From: Nannochloropsis salina CCMP1776
Lineage: Eukaryota; Sar; Eustigmatophyceae; Eustigmatales; Monodopsidaceae
Direction of reading: 5' to 3'
NCBI GenBank assembly: GCA_004565275.1
Contig: SDOX01000036.1
Location: 17,657 to 81,656, forward strand
DNA: 64,000 nt
Position 1 is the first letter of the stretch. Every line of letters begins with the position of its first letter. Positions 1,956 to 59,071 of the stretch are shown here, in pieces. The notes under the pieces are model-generated. The model made no database searches, had not been told where the DNA came from, and was given only the letters and a program-made list of their open reading frames with translations. The position numbers and the translations under genes were made by a program.

Positions 1956-2516
1956 TTTCACTCGTCCTGGCGCTCTACCTTCCTAGGCCACTGGGTTATA
2001 GCTCCTCCGGCGCGCGTTCCCTCCCTGGGCTCGTCACTGTGGTCCAAATGGACGAGGAAACAACACATCGATGTTGAGACGTGGGAAATCGAGATAAGCA
2101 AACTTATACAAATGTTTCTTTTTGGCCCCAAAGGCGCTCTGTACACGAACGGCACCTTCAGTAGGAAGTGCACCGGAGGAGAGGGGGGGAAATGCGAGGA
2201 GGATACAGGCCGTCGAGTGGCAGCCGAAAAGACATCGCGCTCCTTTGCAGACCCACGGCTCATTGTAACGCGGTGCACAAACGACATTCGGGCGTTATCA
2301 TGGCCCAGACCGGCCCCTTTGCCGTTTTGTCCTCCCTCTTCCTGCTTGCAGTAGAATATGCTCCGTGCGCCTCGCTCAATCGCTGAGACCTGGCAGACCT
2401 CCTTGCCTGTTTGACCAAACCAACTGAAAATTTACACTCGACACCCACACCCAGGTCGCGGACGGAGGTGTAACCGGTGCTGTGAGGGTGAGTTGCCGTC
2501 GTTGGTGTACAAAAGT
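1956..2516. promoter_or_regulatory. Intergenic, divergent promoter region
   Basis: The gap of 561 bp separates the starts of the minus-strand BEACH gene and the plus-strand DUF1279 gene, so it should hold both promoters and 5' leaders. I see no conserved element, RNA gene or convincing reading frame in it. Upstream exons of either gene cannot be excluded. Confidence 0.4.
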
Positions 2517-3749
2517 ATGCGAACCACCATGCACTTGCGCCGGTGTGCGTCCCTCCTGGTGACTCCCCCCACCATGGGACCTCGGTGCGCCGGACATCAA
2601 CATCGACTGTCCCAACGCCCTCTGTCATACTCCATGTCCTCGTCCCGTGCATGGTTCTGCGTACACACCACCTCCGAGGATGAAAAAAGCGGCGCGCCTT
2701 TGCTATCGGGGCCCCTCCAATTCTACTTTAAACCACCCGTGTCCTCCGCTTCCTCCCCATCGGCGAGGCTTGCAACGTCTCCTTTTCTTCGTCAGACCCA
2801 TTCCACCTTCAACAAGAGCATGAAATTGATTAACCCCTGCCGTGTCACGCGACGTCCCTTTTTTTCTAGTCGTCCTACCTCCCTCTCCTCCACGGGCCCG
2901 CCCTCGTCTTCCCCTCCCTCCGGTCCCGCCCCCCCCAAACCCACGTGGAAGGAGCTTTTCAAGAAGTACGGCCCCGCCTTTCTCGTCTATTGGAACGGGG
3001 TATGGATCTTATCAGGGATCACCATCTATGCAGCGCTGGAACTGGGGGGCGTGGACCCTCTTCCCCTGGCGCGTGCTGTACATTTGGACGCCTTGATTGA
3101 TTTGGAGAAAATCGATCCTTCGCACGGGAATGTGGCCGTGGCCATACTTTTGAACGAGGTGGTGGAGATCGTACGCTTTCCTTTTGTCCTGGCGACGGTG
3201 CCAAAGGTGGGTCGGGCCGCGGGAGGGGGAAAGGAGGGAAGGAGGGAAGGAGGGAAAGCGCCTCTCCACGACACCGTACCTTTTGCGCAGGTTCCCTCTG
3301 ATCCCTCCCTCCCTCCCTCCCTCCCTATCTCCCCTCCTCCCTCTTTCCAGGTGACGGCTTGGTGGGACCAGCACAAGCCAGCCTACTTCAAGCCCAAGCC
3401 ACGGGCGGACGGCTCCCTCCCTCCCAGTTGGGGGGAGTTGGTCCGGATCCACGGCCCCCCCTTCTTGGTCTGGTGGGGGACCCTGTGGGTCCTGGGTGCA
3501 GGAGGCTTGTTTCTAGGCTTCGAACACCACTTGTTCGGGGCGGACGTCGACGCGTTGACCCTGGCACGGGCTTGGGGGGTGGACAAGGTGGTGGACTTGA
3601 GCGGGGTTCCCCCGAGTCTGGGGAACATGGGCGTGGCCATCGCCTGCAATGAGGTCTTGGAGGTCGTCCGCTTTCCCTTGGCCCTCCTGACCGTGAAGCC
3701 CTGGACGCGGTGGTGGTATCGGATCCGGGGAAAGAGGATGCCGGAGTAG
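2517..3749 (+). CDS. Tandem DUF1279 (FAM210-like) organelle membrane protein
   Basis: Two exons, 2517-3206 and 3351-3749, joined in phase 0, give 363 residues. DUF1279 proteins (FAM210 family) are mitochondrial inner-membrane or plastid proteins. Two copies occur here. The first runs from about residue 135 (WKELFKKYGPAFLVYW to NEVVEIVRFPFVLATV) and the second from about 258 (SWGELVRIHGPPFLVWW to NEVLEVVRFPLALLTV). Each has a hydrophobic helix after the GP motif and ends with the typical NEV-E-xRFP signature. The first 130 residues are rich in Arg, Ser and Thr and poor in acidic residues, as in a mitochondrial or plastid presequence. The ATG at 2517 is used; the longer frame starts with TTG. 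The 144-bp intron between the copies has no stop and keeps the frame, so retention would only add a Gly/Lys/Pro-rich linker. Confidence 0.8.
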   Translation: MRTTMHLRRCASLLVTPPTMGPRCAGHQHRLSQRPLSYSMSSSRAWFCVHTTSEDEKSGAPLLSGPLQFYFKPPVSSASSPSARLATSPFLRQTHSTFNKSMKLINPCRVTRRPFFSSRPTSLSSTGPPSSSPPSGPAPPKPTWKELFKKYGPAFLVYWNGVWILSGITIYAALELGGVDPLPLARAVHLDALIDLEKIDPSHGNVAVAILLNEVVEIVRFPFVLATVPKVGRAAGGGKEGRREGGKAPLHDTVPFAQVPSDPSLPPSLPISPPPSFQVTAWWDQHKPAYFKPKPRADGSLPPSWGELVRIHGPPFLVWWGTLWVLGAGGLFLGFEHHLFGADVDALTLARAWGVDKVVDLSGVPPSLGNMGVAIACNEVLEVVRFPLALLTVKPWTRWWYRIRGKRMPE

Positions 3750-6485: not shown

Positions 6486-8487
6486 ATGGAAGACGAGACG
6501 TGCCCGCAGCGACTCTGGGGTCGACCCAATGAGGAAGAAACCCTCCCTCCAGTGCAGTTGGTGACGCTGAGACCCCGGTCCGGACGTTCAGGGGCAGTGT
6601 CTCCACGCACGGTGAGCCTGCTGGAAATACCGTGTCGTCCCCACCATCGACGTCACCGGAATGCCCAGCGCCCGCACCAGCAGCCGTTGTCGCCCCCACG
6701 TGGAAACGAGGACATGGCCGGCAATGAAACGCAGGGGGATAGAGCTGGGGAAGGGACCGAGGACGCGGTCACGATCTTCCTTATCCACGGCGGTCGGTAT
6801 CGAACCCTGCGTTCTGCGCTCTGGCAATCCCTTGTACTCCATGTTTGTCCCTGCCACCTCTCCAAGAGTCTTCCCTTTCTCGAGAAGGAACAACATGGGG
6901 TGCACCCTGTCGTGTGACTCTTCCCTCCTCACCTTACCCCTTTCACCCCTCCTTCTTGCCCTCCCCTCCCTCCCTCGCGTTTTCCATCATGGGGTTGCCC
7001 AGCCATGGCCACGTGGCGTCAATTTTCGCGCATCCTGCCCTCCCTCCGACGGCATTGTCGCGTTGTCTGCTACGACGCCTACGGTTGCGGGGACAGCCCC
7101 AAGCCCGAGAATGTACCTCCCAGTGCGTACAGCACAGAGGCGCATTTTGAGGACTTGCTGGAGGTGTACCAGCGCTTTAAAGGAAGGAGGAACGTCCTGG
7201 TGGGGCACTCGTTTGGCTCTTCGCAGGCGATGCGGTTGGCGGCTGTCGTGGAAAGAGAGTTGCAAGGGCAGAAACGCGAGGCCCAGGACGGGGACACCCC
7301 AACTCCGCCTTCTCAAGAAGCTCAAAAGCCAGAAATCGCCTCCCTTTCACCCCATGCGAATCGTATCTACCCCTTCCCGCGAGAGGACAGAGGACGCTGC
7401 CTGCCCGCGCCCCTCCCCCTTGAACCGCTTCCCCTCCTCGACGGGCACCGCCCGCCTTCTTCCTCCTCCTTGGCCGCAAGCCTCGCCACCAGCAGCAGCA
7501 GCACCTCCCCCGCCTCGCCTTCTTCCTCCTCCTCCTCCTCTTCCTCCCTCCTGGGCCTCGTCCTCCTTGCCTCCGCCTACCACGTGCCCGACGGAGGGAG
7601 TCCCGTCTTCAACCTCCCCCTCCCCCTCCTCCGCCTCATCCAACCCCTCCTCTCTCAGGTCTTCCGGAGCAAGGCCATCGACCGACACGCCGACCCCGCC
7701 GTCTGGAAGGAGCAGGCACGGGGCAGTCAGGGTGAGGGAGGGCAAGGAGGGAGGGAGGGAGGGAGGGAGGGAGGGCAAGGAGGGGTCAATGTCCGTTCGG
7801 ACAACCTCAGTCGGAGTGAGAAAGGGAAGCGAAGGGGAGGACAAGCGGAAGGAGAGGGGCGATTCTTAGAAATTCTACCAGGTTGGGGCCCAAGTCAATC
7901 CACGTCCTTCCCTCCCTCCCTCCTTCCCTCCCTCCCTCCCTCTCTCCCTCTATCCCTTTCTCCCTCCCTCCCCAGGCAACCCCATGTACGTGGTCAAGTC
8001 CTTCTATCAGCAGCTCCGGTGGGTGCCGCGCGAGATGATCGATACTCTCGACACTCCCTGTGTAGTCGCACACGGGGTCACGGACGGCATCATCCCTCTC
8101 GCCCAAGCGCAGGTGTTGGCAGCCCGCTTGCCCCGGGCGGAGTTCTACGTCCTCCGGTAGGGAGGGAGGGAGGGAGGGAGGGAGGGAGGGAGGATGGGTG
8201 GGTGAAACAGAGTCGCAGCGGGGGTTACGGGTTTGCTCCTAGGAGCCGCCGAGATGGCAGTAGAGGAGACATGATACTGCTGGGTCGACTTCCCAATCAC
8301 CCCTGCCCTCCCTCCCTCCCTCCCTCCCTTCCTACCCCTCTCCCTCCCTTTCTTCGCGTGTCCCTCCCACTTTAGTGAGACAGGTCATCAGATCATGCAG
8401 GAGCGGCCCGCGGAGACGGCGGCTTTGATCACGGCCTGGGTGAAGCGATGGGAGGAGGGAGGGAGGGTTGAAGGGAGGGATGGTTGA
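6486..8487 (+). CDS. Alpha/beta hydrolase, ABHD8-like
   Basis: Four exons (6486-6792, 7003-7731, 7976-8156, 8376-8487) join in phase to give 442 residues. The oxyanion-loop motif LIHGAMATW is split by intron 1 (about residues 98-106). The nucleophile elbow is GHSFGS (Ser172), the acid is in GVTDGIIP (Asp382) and the histidine is in ETGHQ (His410), so the catalytic triad looks complete. The order and spacing match the alpha/beta hydrolase fold, and the FSRILPSLRRHCRVVCYDAYGCGDS segment resembles ABHD8/ABHD-type proteins. Substrate cannot be read from the sequence. An insertion of about 90 residues rich in Pro, Ser and Leu (roughly 195-285) sits between the nucleophile and the lid. Introns 2 and 3 are dominated by GGGA/CCCT tracts. 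The start ATG is the first one close to the conserved part; an upstream start near 6237 is possible. Confidence 0.8.
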
Positions 8488-8970: not shown

Positions 8971-9939
8971 TCAACCGCCTGATCTCTTTGTCAACGAGTA
9001 GAGAAACTGCTTGGACACCTTCCCTTCACGGTGCAGGCATACCATGTTCTTCTCCAACAACTTCTGGACTTCGAACCACACGGGCTGTTCATTGCCGTAC
9101 TGCCTGGCTTGGGCCGCCAACATAAAAAATTTCATGTCCTTGTCCTCGCATCCTGGCACGTGGTGCGCGAAGGAGATCAGCGCGGTGCCACCGGGGCAAA
9201 GCGTGGAATGCAGGGACTGCAGAAGGTTTTCATGCTCCTGGTGCAGCCAAAGACATTCGCCTACCAGTGCCAGGTCGTACAGCCCACTGCTCCTCCCCTC
9301 CCTGCGCACCTTGCCCAAGTCGTCGCCCATGTCTCCCAAGCATGCACGCACTTGTCCGTTCCTGGTGCTCTCCTCTCCCAACAACCCTGCCGTGTCCCTC
9401 CCCCACACATGTCCCATTATGCCCACCCGCCCCGCGGTTTTCCCTGCTCCCAGCCACGCGGCATTGCGACGATCCTGCAACGTCCTCTCGATGGCTTGCA
9501 GTAATCGAGCGTCCGGATAGTCAGTAATCATCATGTAGGCGCCGCCGTGCCTCAAAGCCACCATAGAGGGTAATGCCCCCGCAGCTCCAAATTCGATGAC
9601 GCGCTTGTCCCGGACAAACGCAGGATGGTTGTCGAGGTAACAAGCCAACAACAGGCTACCATTCCATATGGAAAACGCGAAAAGGCTCCCATTCGCACCA
9701 TCATCCTCGGCAAGTGAAATGTGCAGGTGGAAGGATGGGGAAATTTCCACGCGATGGCTGCCATGCTTGTCCTGATCGGGTGAGGACAGTGGGCCTAATT
9801 GCTCTGCAAACCATGGTGGCAAACTAATTTCCTCCAGGCCATCCGCCGCTTCAGGCACCTGATCACTCAAAGACCGCAAGCCAGCTTCTCGGACGTCCTC
9901 CGCCATGCCTGTGCCTGTGAAAGATAGGACGTGTGGCAT
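8971..9939 (-). CDS. EFM7/NNT1-like protein lysine methyltransferase (eEF1A-type)
   Basis: One uninterrupted frame encodes 322 residues. After a variable N-terminus, IWNGSLLLACYLDNHP (about 91-106) is the signature that precedes the Rossmann fold in the METTL/EFM7 family. VIEFGAAGALPSM (114-126) is SAM motif I, TDYPDARLL (139-147) carries the acidic SAM-ribose region, and LVGECLWLHQEHENLL plus LCPGGTALISFAHHVPG give the post-motif strands. In yeast, Efm7 methylates the N-terminal Gly and Lys of eEF1A; the same role here is inferred from family resemblance. A second Met at 9906 (residue 12) is an equally possible start. Its promoter region of 211 bp is shared with the divergent CxxC gene. It is intronless, unlike most neighbours. 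Confidence 0.8.
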   Translation of the reverse strand: MPHVLSFTGTGMAEDVREAGLRSLSDQVPEAADGLEEISLPPWFAEQLGPLSSPDQDKHGSHRVEISPSFHLHISLAEDDGANGSLFAFSIWNGSLLLACYLDNHPAFVRDKRVIEFGAAGALPSMVALRHGGAYMMITDYPDARLLQAIERTLQDRRNAAWLGAGKTAGRVGIMGHVWGRDTAGLLGEESTRNGQVRACLGDMGDDLGKVRREGRSSGLYDLALVGECLWLHQEHENLLQSLHSTLCPGGTALISFAHHVPGCEDKDMKFFMLAAQARQYGNEQPVWFEVQKLLEKNMVCLHREGKVSKQFLYSLTKRSGG

Positions 9940-28773: not shown

Positions 28774-31700
28774 TCATCTGATTACAAATTTATTGGTTGC
28801 ATCAAAAGCCATTCCATCCGATGAGGTCACCTCTAAGTAGTACTCTCTCCCCTTTACGAGCTGTTTTGCCCCTAGACTATCTCGTGGTCTCCACGACCAC
28901 ACCTGCTGCCGCGTGAGCATGTGTGGCTGGGACGGCAGTATCGCAAGCAAGACATCTTCCCCCTTCTCTGGCACCGCCCGCACCGTCAGCGTCGCCATTT
29001 GGAATGTTCCCGGAAAATTTGAGAGGACCAGGGAATAAGTTTCATCAATTTCCACTGCGTCCACGCGGGGAGGGAGCTCACGTAAGAAGGCGTAGGGGTC
29101 CGTGCTGTCAGGTATTAACAAAGTGAGCGCTGCAGAGGCCTCCCGTGAAAGCAGTGCTTTCACCTGCTCATCGTCTTCTTCCACTTCTGCTTCTTCCATT
29201 TCGAAACGCAAACCGTCGGCAGAAAGGACACGGTGGAAGGCACTGGTGCTTGCCGTCGTGCGACGCGTCACAGGCGCCGACGCCAGCCTCGTGACTGCCG
29301 TCGCCCCCGAACCTGCCAAGGTCGTGGATGGGACATAGAGGCTAGTGGTGCGATATACGACGAGTTCGCACACACTGGGAGAGGCAGGCATTCCCCCGTC
29401 GTTTCCCCCGTCAGTCGCATTCGCCGCCACAGCCGCCGTGTGCTCCACCTCCTTTTGCAATGCCAGAGTCAGAGCTTTGGTGCCCGTGGATGTCTTCAAC
29501 TTCCGAGAAATCTCATCCGTAACATTCTTCCAGTCGCTGACTAAGTAGGCCTTGAAGCTTTCCTTCCTTCCACATGCCTCTTGATTCGCCACCTCGGCGG
29601 GATCGATGCTTCCGTAATCAAAGGTCGCGTCGCTCTCTTCCATTTCCGCGTCGCCCTCCAAACGGAGGTAGGGGTCCACATTCTTGCTGCTTTCCCAGGA
29701 CGGCTCCACCCGCAGGTGCCACCGCTCCGATAAGCCCAAATTGACAATCGCTTCACGCAAGGCTGCGGCCACCTCTATTTTGTTTACGCCAGCGACAGCA
29801 GTTGAAGCGCCCGAGGAAGACAGAGGTGGTGCTGCACATGGAGTAAACGTCGTCCGGATCTCGAGCAATTGCACAGTGGAGTTCGCGGACTTTTCCTCCC
29901 GACTCGTCACCCACATGCCCGACCCCGGCTGTTCTTCGCCTGCCTGTCCTGCACCCTTTTCGCCTCCTTGGCCTCCGGGCGGCAAGGCCAGCGCGGAGGC
30001 GTCGGAAGTCTCGCATTTATTCTGCATGCCACAGGCGGAGAGGGCCCCGGGGCCGTCCACATTGTCGAAGGTGTTCCCAGGCGTCACGTCGCAGACCCCG
30101 CACATGTCCATAGGGGAAGCCACGTAGATCTTGTCCGTTTTGGTCTCCTCTACTTTCAGCCCGGGCATCTCTGCGAACGCGTAAAAAGCGTTGTGAGTGA
30201 TGTTGCCGAGGTCCACGTCCCCGCTGTAATTTGTCTTGGGTCCGGTCACGGAGGCCACCGCATTTTCCTCGACACGTCCCTGAGAGGCGTTCGGACTCGT
30301 GTCAGGTACACCCTTTGCAACAGTCGCCTCCGGTCCGTCGATTTGGTTCCCATGCCCCTCCACCCTGCCATGGCCGTCTTCCCCAGTCGTGTCCTCTGCA
30401 ATGCTTTCCTCGTCCTCGACCGGCAAATACTTGTTCAGGATGTCCGTTACTGTCGGCTTGACGTCAAAGCTGGTCTCACTGCCCAAGCGTCCCGTGCTGA
30501 GAAATCGCGGCATCGTGGGGTGCATCGGTCGCACTTCGACGTCCTCCCCCCGTGTCGCCAGTGGCGCGGGCTTTCCATGTCCCGATGTCTTTGCCTGGTC
30601 GAAGCCTGCCTTGTTTTCTCCTGACGCCTCCAAACGTCGGCCGACGAAATCGTCGGGGTTGGGGCCCACGTCCGTGAACCTCCAGGAGATTTTCCGGGCC
30701 ACGAAGATGTTCCGGGACCAGTCCGTTTGCCCATGCTTGTTGACGGTCAAGACGTTGAAAAGGACGGTGGAATTCCCCAATTGAGTGGAGAGGAAAACGT
30801 TGTTTCCCGCCACATAAATTGCCACGAGACCCCGGGAACGGAACGCCACTGGAGTAGCAGGTGTAATATACAGATTCAAGACTAGGCTGGCCCCGCCCAG
30901 CCCGATGAAAAGGTCGGCGCCTTGACCCGCCGCAAACGATATTGCACTTGTCGATGTATATACCTGGTTGATACGGGACATATAGCCGCCAAAGACTGCC
31001 ATGTCCCCCCCCGCGAAGCTATTCGCTCCGATACCCGTGTTGAAGAATCCCACGGCATTCACGATCGTCGCGGAGCCTGCCCCTAGATACAAATAACTTC
31101 CCGTGCCAAAAAAGGTAAGAAGGGCGGTTGACCGCGCAAGAATGACATCCGAGAAGACAGTAACGCCCGCCCCGATGTAGTTTGTAATTCCACAGCCAGT
31201 CACGTAACCCAGCGCCGACATGGTGGACTGAATGACCCCCGTGCGGATGCTGACCCCTGCGCCTACAGCCATCTGAAAGCCCAAGCCCGTGCCAATGCCC
31301 ATGATCCCATTCGCGGCGTAGATGAATCCCGTCATGAGTGCCACACCACTCCCCGTAAAGATACCGATCCCTCCTCCAAAGTACGCAGCGAAGCCGATCG
31401 TGGTGGTGACGATGCAGCCCGTCAAAATGGTCGCGCCCCCCCCCAAGAAGAAGAGGTACCCTAGACCCATGGTACAGACAAAAGTTCCCGCGTAGTTGAA
31501 AAGACATCCGGTGATGACTACGGTGCCTCCCAAATTAGCCACATACCCACCCGCGCCGAGAGAATTAGAAAAGATCGCCATATTCACAAAGATGCTGCCC
31601 GTGAGGTACATGTTTCCTCCCAGGACCAGAAATTCGCCCCCTATAAATTGAATCTCCCGAAAGGCGATCCCAATCCGGGGCCTGAATACGTGGCAATCCG

Positions 31701-33142
31701 TGACCCGCAGCGTGCCCGACTCGGCCACAATGCCACCCCCAAAGACTTGCACGTTTGTCTGGGGGGGCGTGATCCCCAAAAAAAGCGCGGCGTTCCTCCA
31801 GTTGGCACTAAACCGACAGCCTGTGAAGAGGGCGACTCCCCCCCGTCGAATATAGCATGTGGGGCCGCGGAGGCGGTAGAGGACCAGGGGGACGACCTCC
31901 ACGAATTTTCCCTTCACGATTTCCACAAAACGCACGTCCAAGAACCCGCCTGCCTCAACCAGGAAGGCCCGGGTCGTGTTGTGGGCGTCGATGATCGGCA
32001 ACCCCAACGGCCGACCCACGAGGGTGACCCGGCGGCGGATGACAAGCTGCTCCGTGATCGAGTAGTTCGTAGCGGGCACCAAGGTCAAGCGTGGACAGGT
32101 CGTGTGGTCGATCATGTACCGGAGCTCTTCCGCGTTTTTGGGAGTGCACCCTTCCACGGCCACGTACCCCATACTAGCCTGGGCCGCGGCCTGAATCTTG
32201 CCCACGGCCTGTCCCAGAGCACTGGTGGCCAGGGAATTGGAGAGAGCCTGCGCTTGCTCTTGCGCTTGGTCTTGGCCGGCCGTCAAGGCGGAGACTACGT
32301 TGTTGACCAAGGTTGAGTTTCTCAATAGGTTTCCCAGCGCGGTCGTCCCCGTCGTGGCGCCAGGCGAAGTGGCTTGTTTTGACTCGGCCGGAGGAAAGAG
32401 TGAAGCTGGAGTGACCGCTGGGTTTCCTTTAATGTTATCGCTACTGCTGCCATTGTTTAGGATCTTGTTCAGGAGGGGCAGTTCGTCCGGGGATACTACA
32501 GTGGGAGTTGTCGCTGTCTGTGTAGGGTCCTGGCACCGGAAAAAAGTGGAAGATGACGTCAAGCCTTTAACCCAGAAATGGCCTTTCAAAGGAAATTTGA
32601 GAGAGGTAAGTTTGTGGCGCGCGAGTGCCCAGGAATCATTGCGAGCACTCCATTGAGAGCTTGAATTTGTGAGAAAATTGCCAGGCGTGAGTAAGGGGGA
32701 TAGGAGAGTTCCAGGTTATCCGCGAGTAAGTACGGTACGAGTACAAATTTGAGCGCGGATAAGGCGAGTACATTGAGTGTGTGAGTTTTCGAGTGTTAAT
32801 GAAGGTCTTTATCGAGATGACAGTAGACAACCACATGCCTGGGAGCAGTGAATACTTAGGTATTCGAAGTAAACAACACGATTTAAATAGGCATGCTCAA
32901 TCCCACACTACCTTCCCCATACTTATGACACACACGTGCCATAATTTTATTTTGTGGGGATGGTTGTCGAATCGGAGACCTTTTCATTCACGACATCGGC
33001 TGATATGATCCGTTTGAACGACCCTCCATGCCCACAAGTTGCTGCTTACCTTCCTGTCGCCTCGTCCCACCAGGAGTCCTATTATAAGGACTATAACACC
33101 CAAAAAGAGTGCGCTTGCCCCGATGATGTGCGCTCGTTTCAT
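28774..33142 (-). CDS. Secreted or membrane-anchored beta-solenoid protein with exact 30-residue repeats
   Basis: Two minus-strand exons (33142-33050 and 32529-28774) join in phase 0 to give 1282 residues. Exon 1 is a signal peptide or signal anchor (IIGASALFLGVIVLIIGLLVG, residues 6-26). Residues about 185-335 look like a right-handed beta-helix entry (VTLVGRPLGLPIIDA, FTGCRFSANWRNAALFLG). Residues 336-545 are seven tandem repeats of exactly 30 residues with the pattern G-x-hydrophobic-x-hydrophobic-(T)-G near the start, a GxG near position 21-23 and a closing small residue. They are rich in Gly, Thr and aliphatic residues. The next 600 residues are acidic and linker-like, with a DMCGVCD cysteine motif. 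The C-terminal 95 residues look like an Ig-like or KNH-type strand domain (ETYSLVLSNFPGTF, GREYYLEVTSSDG). A cell-wall, adhesion or ice/glycan-binding role is possible but not shown. I do not recognise the family. Confidence 0.75.
30988..31617 (-). repeat. Seven tandem 90-bp coding repeats in the beta-solenoid gene
   Basis: Reading down the minus strand, repeat starts fall at 31617, 31527, 31437, 31347, 31257, 31167 and 31077, each exactly 90 bp apart. Each encodes 30 residues, for example GTVVITGCLF at the start of repeat 2 and GVSIRTGVIQ at the start of repeat 5. Nucleotide identity between units is low, so period is kept by protein structure rather than by recent duplication. Confidence 0.85.
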
Positions 33143-55500: not shown

Positions 55501-58500
55501 TTGCCTCGCTGTAGATCGAATATTCTTTTTCATACCACCTCTGATTTCACCCCTTTCCCCCGCCCTCCGTTCGCGTGCTTGTGTTTCGGGCCCCGCCCTC
55601 ATTCTTTTCAAATCCTCCTTCCCTCCCTCACCTCTCCTCGTGCACCTTCACGCTCGTAGGTCCGTCTTGGCGCCGGGCTTCTCCTCCGGGACGGGCGTAC
55701 CCTGGCTCTTATCGGAGAGGCCACTCTACCCCACCCTCTCACCAGCACACAGCTCAATCTCTACGTGGGGTTGAGTCAGAACGGGAAGCTGGTAAGGCGG
55801 GGGGGAAGGAGGGAGGCAGGAAAGAGGCTGAGGGGCCCAGAGAGCCATGGAGAATGGACGGGAGGGACCTGCGGGCCGGAGTGGTGTCAGGAGCCCTCTT
55901 TGCCTCCATTCCTCCCACCGCCGTTTCTTCCCCTCCCCCTAGGTGGCCGTCGCGATAGGGGACATACGTAGCGTGGAGGCGGAGAAAGACGGGCTGGACG
56001 TGGAAACCGCCTTTCAGATCTCGCTTTTGCTGGAAGGCACGGGCCAGGGAGGCCTGCTCTGGCGTCCGGCAGGAGGAAGCGGGGGAGGAAGCGGGGGAGG
56101 AAGCGGGACCTTGACCTTCGTCGCTGAGCCGGTAGATCAGCAGTCCCAGGAGGCCCAGGACTTGGCCGCTTACCTGCTGGAACACGGACAGCGGGTCCCA
56201 TCCCTTCCCCTCCCCATGCCATCGCCGGATCTGGTGCGGCAACAGGCCTTGGTGGCCTCCCTCCAGGAGCAGATCGCTCTTTCCCCCTTGTCCGGTCTGG
56301 GGGAGGCCGCGTCCGCCTCTCTATTGGCGGTCCGCAATGAACTGGAGCGAGTAGAACGCCGGATCAAGAAGAGAGAGAAGATGTTGCGGGGGGTGCGGCA
56401 GAAGGAGTGGGAGGATTTCCTGGCGGCCGTGGATCTATTGGAAGGTAGGGAGGGAGGGAGGGAGGGAGGGAGGGGTCGAGGGAGGGATCGAGGGAGGGTG
56501 TATGGAAAGGCTTCATTGATTCTTGTCTCCTTCAGTCTATAACTCATACGGTCAACTTGAGGTTGCTTAGTTTGGGTGTCACGCGTGTGCATTTCTGATG
56601 CACACGCGTGACTCCCCCCGCGGCGCCCTGGCTTTTCCCCTCTGCAGATGTTCTTTCAAAATGCTCTAAATTTTTCTTTTCCATCAACCTCACCACCCTG
56701 TGTCCCTTCCCTCCCATCCCTTCCTTTCCCCTGCTCCTGTGTCAAATTTCCACCCAGAATACGGCGCACTCGTCGATACGCATCAACAACGTGTCTCCAC
56801 CGCCACCTCTCCTCCCTCCGCCCCCACCTCCCCCCCTTCTTCCCTCTCTCCCTCGCGTGCGCTGGTTCCCTCTGGTTTGGGGCAGCTCCTGGGGACTGTG
56901 AGGGCGGAGAACGAGCTGTGGGCCTCATTAGTGTTGCTCTCCGACGGCCTTGCCGACATGGTAGGGAGAGAGGCAGGGAGGGAGATGGAAAGGAGAAAGG
57001 GATAGAGGGAGGGAGTCGTTGGCTCACGCGTATTGCTGCCCCCCCCCTCCTCCAGGACGCGGTGGACCTGGTGGGCGTCATGTCCTCCCTCGTCAATGAC
57101 ATCAGCAAGAGCGAGGTAGGTCAGCGTCGGTCTCAACCGACCTTCCCGCCGTCTCTTTACCCCAACGTCCTTCTAGAACAAGCATATTCGGGGCTCTCTC
57201 TCCTTCATGACGTTCCCACCCAAGGCACCGCGATGCCCACGCGCCTGTGCCCTCCTTCCCTCCCTCCCTCCGTCCCTTCTTCACACCCTCTCCCATCCAT
57301 TCTCCCTCCCTCAGGTCAAGGTCAAATACACGGCCTCAGAGGCCGCTTTCCTACACTTGGAACGCCTGGAGCCCATCCGGGAAGAGCTTCTGATGGCGCA
57401 GAAGGCGCGGGGTTTGGATTTCCCTTGTCCCCTTGACCCCTTGCTCGCGGGGGTGGCGCAGTGCTGGCTGGCGGGGTTTAGCTGGCGGGAGCTGGTGGAA
57501 ACCACGAGCCTGGATCAGGTGGGTGGGAGGGTGGGAGGGAGGGAGGAAGGGATGGAGGGAGGGAGGGCAGGAAGGAGGGAGGGAGGGAGGGAGGGAGACG
57601 GGAGCAAGGGACACCGCAGATACCTTGGAGGGGCCCGTGCAGGTCGATATATGGCCTCAGAAGTTTTGGAGCAAAGCACGGGCGGACCTGTCGTGTGTTG
57701 CGTTGAACCAAAATTGCGCTCACTCTGTTTAAGTCACACGCAACCCTCGGCGTATTCCGTGAGTCCTCCACGAGAATACCGGCATGATCCGTCCCTCTCT
57801 CCAACCCTCCTCCCCCTCCTTCCCCTGGGTCCATGCAGGGGGATGTCTGTCGGCACGTGCGGAAGGTCATTGACGCCCTGCGGCAAATTCCTGTGCTGCC
57901 CAAAGGCCTGGTGCCTGAACGTCTCAAGAACACTGCCCGGGAGGCGGCGGACGCCATGGACCGGTTTCCCGTCTCGGATGACGTGGGCGGGGGAGGAGGA
58001 GGGGTGCGCCGAAAAGGCGGGAGGGAGGAGGGAGGGGGGGAGGAGACGGAGGTGGTGGAGGTGGAGCGTTGGGAGATGGTGGAGGGGGAGGAGGGGGAGG
58101 AGCCGGTGGAGGGAGGGGAGGAGGAGGAGGTGGAGGGAGTGGACGACCTGGGGTGGATGGGGGAGGAGAAGGGGGGGAAAGAAAGCTTGAGGAAGCAGTT
58201 GATGGAAACCATGTACGGGAAGGATCGGTGGGGGACGGGAGGGGCGGGGGGAGGGGCGGACGGAGGACGGGGCGGAGGGGTGCCGGCGTCCGTGAGTATT
58301 TTGAACCGGGGGGGAGGGATCAGGCCCAGGTTTAGGCGCAAAGTCGAATCGATGACACGCGCGGAGTTGAAGAGGCGGCGACAGGAGGAAGTGAAGGAGG
58401 TGTTTGGTGAAGGTGCAGAGGAGGAAGAGGAGGGGGAGCAGGAGGAGGAGGTGCGGGAGAAGGAAGCTGGAGTAGAGGCAGCGTTCGCGGAATTTTTGGC

Positions 58501-59071
58501 GGAAACCAAGGCAAAGAGGAGCAAGTTGGAGGCAGCGGAGCCTCTGGAGAATTTTTTGGCGCGAACGGCAGTCTTGGGGGAGGAGGTGACGGAAAGGGAG
58601 GAGGGGGAGGAAGAGGAGGAGGAAGGGGAGGAGGAAGAAGAGGAGGAAGAGGAGCTAGAGGGTTACTCTTTCGTGGATATTGAGGCTGCATTTAAGGACG
58701 GTGGTGACGGGAAGTGGGAAGGGGAGATCGATTTCGAGAAAGAGGCGGCGTTGTACGAGGAAGGCTTGTATGTCATGGACGGAGACGAGTACAATGAAAT
58801 GGACTCGAGTGAGGAGGATAACCCCGTGTTGCGGGCGGCCAGGGTGGAGAGGCCAATTGGAGAAAGGGAGGGAGAGAGGGTAATAGAGATAGAGGAGGAG
58901 GGAGCAGAGGGAGGGGCGTCGGCGATTGAGGCGCTGGAAAGGGGAGGGGAGGAGAAACATGGGGAAATAGAGGAGGAGGAGGACGTGTTTGCGGCTCTAC
59001 TGTCCGCGTTGGATTCGGCGCCGGCGGTGCTGCCTCCCGCGGGTAAAGGGGAGGAAAGCCAACGAGGATGA
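49579..59071 (+). CDS. ISE2: Plastid-targeted Ski2-family RNA helicase, ISE2-like
   Basis: Ski2-type DExH helicases unwind RNA; plant ISE2 is the chloroplast member. Twenty-four exons join in phase and encode 1503 residues. They start at 49579, 50221, 50487, 50830, 51109, 51482, 51718, 52052, 52380, 52754, 53142, 53580, 53890, 54215, 54525, 54783, 55138, 55336, 55660, 55943, 56758, 57056, 57315 and 57839 (last ends 59071). The leader is an ER signal ([13 protein letters not shown] before Phe) and a Ser/Thr/Arg-rich transit region, as in complex plastids. Helicase motifs are APTGSGKT (141-148), [15 protein letters not shown] (235-238), SATIAN (266-271), HHAGLLP and [10 protein letters not shown] (582-591). 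Ski2-type C-terminal segments follow, including [19 protein letters not shown]. The last 300 residues are an acidic Glu/Gly-rich tail. Two in-frame low-complexity insertions (GGGS repeats at 56070-56111; Pro/Ser in exon 21) are present. Confidence 0.9.
53424..53472 (+). repeat. Copy of part of exon 23 inside intron 11 of the same gene
   Basis: The segment matches 57377-57425 in exon 23: the first 25 bases (CCGGGAAGAGCTTCTGATGG and on) are identical and the next 24 differ at about five positions. It lies in intron 11 (53238-53579) of the ISE2-like gene, same orientation, with no flanking repeat that would suggest a transposon. Confidence 0.85.
56578..56612. repeat. Perfect 15-bp inverted repeat (hairpin) in ISE2 intron 20
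   Basis: GTCACGCGTGTGCAT at 56578-56592 is followed by the five-base loop TTCTG and then its exact reverse complement at 56598-56612. The G/T-C-rich flanks extend the pairing imperfectly. It sits inside the intron 56445-56757, about 130 bp after the donor. Confidence 0.95.

Follow-up and report, generated by a model that had tools for sequence, protein, structure and literature searches.

What kind of protein keeps a repeat unit at a fixed 30 residues while little of the unit's sequence is kept? The question is raised by a gene on the minus strand of a 64,000-nucleotide stretch of the Nannochloropsis salina CCMP1776 genome (contig SDOX01000036.1; the whole stretch that was analysed is referred to as the window). 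An initial annotation had described seven units with starts exactly 90 bp apart, preceded by a signal sequence and followed by a strand-rich C-terminal domain. The gene was read from the sequence as two exons (Table 1). In a hydropathy scan, the hydrophobic stretch of the first exon has a mean hydropathy of 2.86 over 19 residues and is followed by charged residues. A scan for bacterial-type promoters and terminators upstream of the gene gave no match, an outcome that is uninformative for this gene. Four of the 20 neighbouring frames in the window match Pfam families (2493-3749, FAM210A/B-like; 7005-8375, alpha/beta hydrolase; 8971-9939, Methyltransf_16; 57833-59071, DSHCT), and no link between these four and the solenoid gene was seen.

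Table 1 Layout of the solenoid gene and its protein, in window positions.
Feature	Position	Strand	Basis
Gene, 1282 residues, two exons	28774-33142	minus	Sequence reading
Exon 1: ATG, 31 codons, GT donor at end, phase 0	33050..33142	minus	Sequence reading
Likely signal anchor (hydrophobic stretch) after short basic N-terminus, in exon 1	~33065-33127	minus	Hydropathy scan
Intron, GT...AG, phase 0, 520 bases	32530..33049	minus	Predicted by reading
Exon 2: 1251 codons plus stop, no internal stop	28774..32529	minus	Translation
Ser/Thr/Ala/Gln/Asn-rich linker joining anchor to helix	32170..32529	minus	Translation; AlphaFold2 covers low-confidence edge only
N-terminal cap and first coils of predicted beta-helix, irregular, charged	31642..32166	minus	AlphaFold2; charge 19.8% over 172 residues
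Nine 30-residue coils, 3.3% charged	30832..31641	minus	Lag analysis, alignment, AlphaFold2, charge count
Four-Cys module, CxxC ... GPGA ... C ... C	30013..30102	minus	Alignment of C-terminal region
Predicted alpha/beta region, two beta-alpha-beta-like segments	29332..29880	minus	AlphaFold2, local pLDDT 75-91 in places, 34-58 elsewhere
C-terminal strand-rich domain, possibly Ig-like	28777..29049	minus	AlphaFold2 (weak); Pfam Kre9_KNH below cut-off, in paralogues only

The period proved real. The mean BLOSUM62 score at a lag of 30 residues is 0.84 (25.8% identity), as compared with -0.68 ± 0.15 in 2000 shuffles (maximum -0.19), and thus lies about ten standard deviations above them; the next-ranked lags are 90 and then 60. 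When lags of 5-59 were scanned over 300 shuffles, the highest value reached was -0.07. The strict 90-bp spacing of the initial annotation therefore stands, but the number of units is nine instead of seven, with irregular coils before them. On the minus strand the units start at 31641, 31551, 31461 and so on to 30921, the ninth ending at 30832 (exon 2 residues 297-566); the start at 31617 given previously belongs to the same register, offset by eight residues. Pairwise identity among the nine units averages 21% (10-33%). At the DNA level a lag of 90 is also best, with 39% identity, the average for lags 20-199 being 26%. Tandem Repeats Finder detected no tandem array within the coil DNA, its sole listing being a short 12/6-bp repeat at 32249-32274. 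Strict unit length combined with little sequence identity, as had been claimed, is borne out by these values. A recent tandem duplication of DNA was ruled out as the source of the period, given the lack of a coil array and the mere 39% DNA identity at lag 90.

The window gene is one of at least 23 related loci in the genome (26.5 Mb in 103 contigs searched). The window solenoid as query found 16 of these, itself included, and three paralogue queries brought the total to 23; the counts are lower bounds and may include allelic copies in the assembly. With the C-terminal region of the window protein as the sole query, 6 of the 23 were found. Pairs of loci lie on contigs C14 and C42, and three on C93. 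The loci on C26 and C61 consist of short open pieces only, one C61 match containing an in-frame stop, and may be intron-rich or decayed. An alignment of the solenoid comprised 15 of the 23 loci, and one of the C-terminal region 14 (L020 and L024-L030 are outside both, L013 is outside the latter). In a tree of the 15 solenoid rows, the window gene groups with L009 and L010 with support of 100/99.

The coils themselves are kept to a fixed size across this family. Among the 13 members with long coil regions, window gene included, a lag of 30 scores best in 12 and second to 60 in L010, at 6.7-13.4 standard deviations above shuffles. The nine coils align almost gap-free in all 13. In ten of them the coil columns contain 269 or 270 letters; L021 has 268, L019 265 and L015 254, the last being shorter because its exon starts inside the coil region. 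Coil number and length are thus kept in 13 of 13 members, though the other 12 share only 23-74% identity with the window protein. The linkers, unlike the coils, differ among members in length and make-up. The Gly that had been placed at position 1 of the repeat (position 9 of our units) is present in 9 of 9 units and in all 120 pooled cells of the 15 aligned members, and Gly also occupies unit position 1 in 96% of the 120. A GxG described near positions 21-23 is equally recognisable (first Gly in 7 of 9 units, second in 9 of 9). The T-G pair near positions 6-7 holds as a preference but not throughout, with T and G each present in 5 of 9 units and in 51% and 67% of pooled cells respectively.

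For recent duplicates, dN is below dS: 0.008 versus 0.048 for L019/L020 and 0.001 versus 0.017 for L024/L025, and, in the C-terminal exons, 0.007 versus 0.024 for L027/L028 and 0.006 versus 0.029 for L028/L029. The proteins are therefore under constraint and maintained. L027, L028 and L029 are neighbours (C93:121500-139500); their C-terminal exons share 98.5% (L027/L028) and 98.8% (L028/L029) protein identity, and their N-terminal solenoid exons only 70% and 52%, a contrast that suggests gene conversion at one end or fast change at the other. Some paralogue linkers are of odd make-up, with Met/Asp and Met/His/Asp repeats in L014, His/Asp runs in L019 and L020, and long Asp/Glu/Val repeats in L013; these linkers are perhaps metal-binding. 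In addition, L014, L016, L017, L019 and L023 have in common, close to the C-terminus, a basic tail in which an Arg/Lys-rich run is often followed by an aromatic or hydrophobic residue and Gly; no such tail was observed for the window gene, L009, L010, L011 or L012.

AlphaFold2, run with the 15-member alignment, yields a solenoid (mean pLDDT 80.6, pTM 0.78), in agreement with the fixed-size structural coil that had been proposed. In ten-residue blocks, pLDDT is 74-97 over model residues 21-440, then 54 and mostly lower within coil nine; coils 1-8 and the start of coil nine have block values of 74-96, and the remainder of coil nine values of at most 54. Strands are predicted at about positions 4-6, 9-14 and 17-30 of each unit (lengths 3, 5-6 and 14). 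This strand pattern suggests that one coil is formed per 30 residues in the model, and does not favour the alternative of two turns per unit. Successive coils of strands, as expected of a parallel beta-helix, are likewise present in the prediction. The C-terminal region was modelled with a mean pLDDT of 59.4 and a pTM of 0.41, and should be read as a rough outline only. Strands are predicted at its C-terminal end, as previously annotated, but the region as a whole appears as a low-confidence mixture of alpha/beta segments and strands. Within it, all 14 aligned members, out of 23 loci, keep the four Cys of the Cys module and one Gly unchanged (L013 has no match to the region; L020 and L024-L030 lie outside the alignment).

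The earlier remark that no described family with this 30-residue signature is known in algae is in line with the library searches. At E ≤0.001 the solenoid matched nothing in Pfam, NCBIfam, PHROGs (searched with the window protein alone) or the PDB, and the window protein has no Pfam or PHROGs family even at E 1. When the aligned members were searched singly, the solenoid reached at best an E of 0.0073 in Pfam and 0.0088 in NCBIfam; the C-terminal region reached 0.0045 in Pfam (Kre9_KNH) and 0.026 in NCBIfam. A weak MerP-like match, the only one that the window protein has in NCBIfam (E 0.014 and 0.026; 15-16 bits versus a cut-off of 92.55), was taken as chance or shared topology. The window solenoid as a single sequence of 377 residues matched nothing in the PDB at E 5. 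With an E limit of 1, the solenoid profile matched only 3mqg (E 0.015, 38 positions) and 4mzu (E 0.026, 49 positions); the best PDB match of the C-terminal profile had an E of 0.11. The Pfam Beta_helix model scores above its cut-off at two other places in the genome (L031 and L032) and at none of the family loci. Three of 14 members, the window member not among them, match Kre9/KNH (PF10342) in their C-terminal region, with 18.2, 13.9 and 13.1 bits. Membership of that family was rejected, the best score lying below the cut-off of 24.6, and a whole-genome search with PF10342 gave no match at E 0.001. Chlamydial Pmp proteins are absent from the four Pfam families that appear at E 1 among the 15 members.

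A viral or bacterial origin was rejected, as no relative was confirmed in the phage, plasmid, viral and prokaryote collections that the searches covered. Phages and plasmids yielded none by tblastn (E 0.01); two scans of viral contigs gave 8 and 4 pattern matches and prokaryote contigs 193, of which 0 were confirmed, on the basis of short peptide patterns by which distant kin can be missed. The titles and abstract openings of the open-access matches listed in a literature search contain no description of the family, which does not prove that none exists.

In a hydropathy scan, 19 of 22 loci (L030 was outside the scan) show a hydrophobic stretch close to a start codon, in most cases preceded by basic residues; L012 has one more by eye, and L013 and L021 have none in the scan. 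In the window gene it occupies its own small first exon (33065-33142), and several paralogues likewise encode a likely anchor upstream of the solenoid exon; several of the candidates sit in upstream exons whose joining is assumed. Such a stretch, together with the basic residues, suggests a type II membrane topology. The annotated signal sequence is present, in a separate first exon, but looks more like an uncleaved signal anchor than a cleaved signal peptide. Routing to the membrane or surface, as had been expected, is supported by hydropathy, and the family proteins are probably membrane-anchored.

Golgi enzymes typically have type II anchors, and pectate lyases and epimerases are typically built as beta-helices. 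The gene could accordingly encode a Golgi-resident type II carbohydrate-active enzyme (a beta-helix lyase, epimerase or hydrolase) that modifies wall polysaccharide during secretion. One of 15 members does match Pfam Pect-lyase_RHGA_epim weakly (E 0.069), and Glu, Arg, Asp, Tyr and Cys are conserved in the N-terminal part. However, neither the window protein nor the aligned solenoid members match a Pfam or NCBIfam family at E 0.001, pectate lyases, epimerases and GH28 included. All Asp, Glu, Arg and Cys columns conserved at 80% lie before the regular coils. Within the nine coils of the aligned members, the columns conserved to this level are mostly Gly, with Thr, Val, Leu, Phe, Ala and one Tyr, and none is Asp, Glu, His, Lys or Arg; no conserved cluster of acidic, His, Lys or Arg residues is found there. 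This distribution speaks against a groove-type enzyme, and we regard a Golgi enzyme as unlikely.

The near absence of charge from the coils is, together with the multigene family, a feature that goes beyond the initial annotation. Asp, Glu, Lys and Arg make up 2.2-5.7% of the nine coils across 13 members, as compared with 15.8-22.7% of the preceding helix part (12 members) and 19.9-25.9% of the C-terminal region (14 members). Mean hydropathy follows the same order, at +0.50 to +1.22, +0.08 to +0.48 and -0.46 to -0.17 respectively, in the same numbers of members. Among 20 window frames, compared stop to stop at ≥300 residues and many of them probably not genes, this gene has the lowest charge fraction over any 270 residues (2.6%, the next being 11.5%). 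In three charged coils of the N-terminal part, positions 5, 11, 13 and 16 are never charged, and positions 6, 7, 10, 12, 14, 17 and 20 are charged in 24-51%; this pattern marks the inward and outward sides of the coil. Outward positions are charged in 100 of 263 cases (38%) in the charged coils and in 33 of 839 (3.9%) in the regular ones, a contrast inflated by the choice of positions for their charge in the first set, a fault from which the overall charge contrast is free; as the rows are related, no p value is given. The picture is not wholly clean: the charges that remain in the regular coils are mainly at positions 3 (31%) and 20 (18%), and position 13, although read as inward, is charged in 10%. 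Inward positions are hydrophobic in 75% of cases in the regular coils versus 94% in the charged coils. Of the outward positions, 12, 14 and 10 are Val, Ile or Thr in 80%, 86% and 48% of pooled coils.

Such a face bears on three further readings. The initial annotation had found the composition compatible with an ice- or glycan-binding face, and the make-up of the outward positions would allow this, Thr alone occupying position 14 in 52%; an ice-binding protein would use Thr/Val ladders. Val and Ile nevertheless outnumber Thr at positions 10 and 12, and ice-binding proteins do not usually form families of 23 loci whose products have long C-terminal regions and apparent anchors. We regard an ice-binding role as highly improbable. 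The coils might instead be embedded in lipid-derived material, such as a hydrophobic outer-wall polymer or its precursors, in line with a hydropathy above that of the preceding helix and the C-terminal region. Part of that hydropathy is due to Gly/Ala packing within the coil, however, and the polymer is assumed for this organism; furthermore, the section on red-body proteomics of N. oceanica in PMC11211512 names only a lipocalin. We judge a lipid binder to be quite improbable. Finally, rods of different members could stack via their uncharged faces, which are suited to rod-rod packing, to form a self-assembling surface layer or adhesin for cell-cell contact, aggregation or self-recognition. 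The many diverged paralogues and their tandem clusters are consistent with this, as is the one cluster whose N- and C-terminal exons have diverged to different extents. Against it, a comparison of the window gene with L009, the paralogue closest to it, gives a saturated dS and a dN of 0.18 for the solenoid (0.36 for the C-terminal region), unlike the result of diversifying selection, and an adhesin, too, seems unlikely to us.

The reading we prefer, with a probability of roughly 0.4, is that the gene belongs to an expanded family of type II single-pass surface proteins, in which the rod serves as a structural spacer or tether and not as an enzyme. The N-terminus is predicted to be cytosolic and the beta-helix rod to lie outside the cell. 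At the beta-helix rise of 0.48 nm per coil, a predicted rod of roughly 14 coils (the nine regular and about five irregular ones) would measure some 6-7 nm. The uncharged Val/Ile/Thr face of the regular coils could pack on a flat non-polar partner, the candidates being another such rod, cellulose (by its hydrophobic face) and a lipid-derived wall polymer. The Cys module and C-terminal domain may bind further components of the wall or surface. As a spacer or tether, the rod would bridge membrane and wall at a fixed length. An anchored, uncharged rod of fixed length with a conserved outer Cys module fits a membrane-wall tether.

The genome contains 34 matches to light-harvesting loci, as befits a photosynthetic organism, and two loci that match the cellulose-synthase family, a family which also matches three bacterial controls. 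For Nannochloropsis, a review (PMC10305002) and the introduction of PMC8955213 mention in passing that struts connect the plasma membrane with the cellulose layer. That the proteins are themselves such molecular struts, charge-free rods of fixed length running from the plasma membrane to the wall and held at the far end by wall glucan or a hydrophobic polymer, is improbable in this specific form; they would then make up an architectural class of proteins for which the searches turned up no description in algae. More generally, nine equal coils with charge lost on the outside point to a rod lying against a non-polar surface or its own copies. Should the family reside at the membrane-wall interface, it would offer a genetic handle on wall tethering and breakage resistance in microalgae, the latter a practical question for oil-producing algae. 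The family also illustrates how a large gene family can go unrecognised by profile libraries if coil length and the positions of Gly are almost all that persists.

Several known protein classes invite comparison with the window family. The pectate-lyase-like class comprises the right-handed members of the parallel beta-helix superfamily, and resembles the window family in its repeating strands, its N-terminal cap, its turns at Gly and the alternation of hydrophobic residues that point inward. It differs in that the window family has a strict, insertion-free coil of 30 residues that is nearly free of charge and has no acidic or basic cluster; the likeness is one of class, taken from predicted strands, and carries no sequence match. 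The PDB entries 3mqg and 4mzu, which we take to be hexapeptide-type acyltransferases with a left-handed beta-helix, are weak and partial profile matches only, and the period of hexapeptide acyltransferases is 18, not 30. Chlamydial Pmp repeats resemble the coils of the window family in rhythm (GG, alternating Thr, a Phe). Pmp proteins carry an autotransporter barrel, in place of which the window family has a likely signal anchor, and a Pmp Pfam match is lacking. The resemblance of the C-terminal region to Ig domain proteins of the Kre9/KNH type is weak and confined to paralogues (best E 0.0045). Beta-solenoid antifreeze proteins display ladders of beta-branched residues on one face, as does the window family, whose coils are, in contrast, 30 residues long and rich in Val/Ile, within large multidomain proteins with a likely anchor. 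Judged from the predicted model, the solenoid appears to be a variant of a known fold class with new features.
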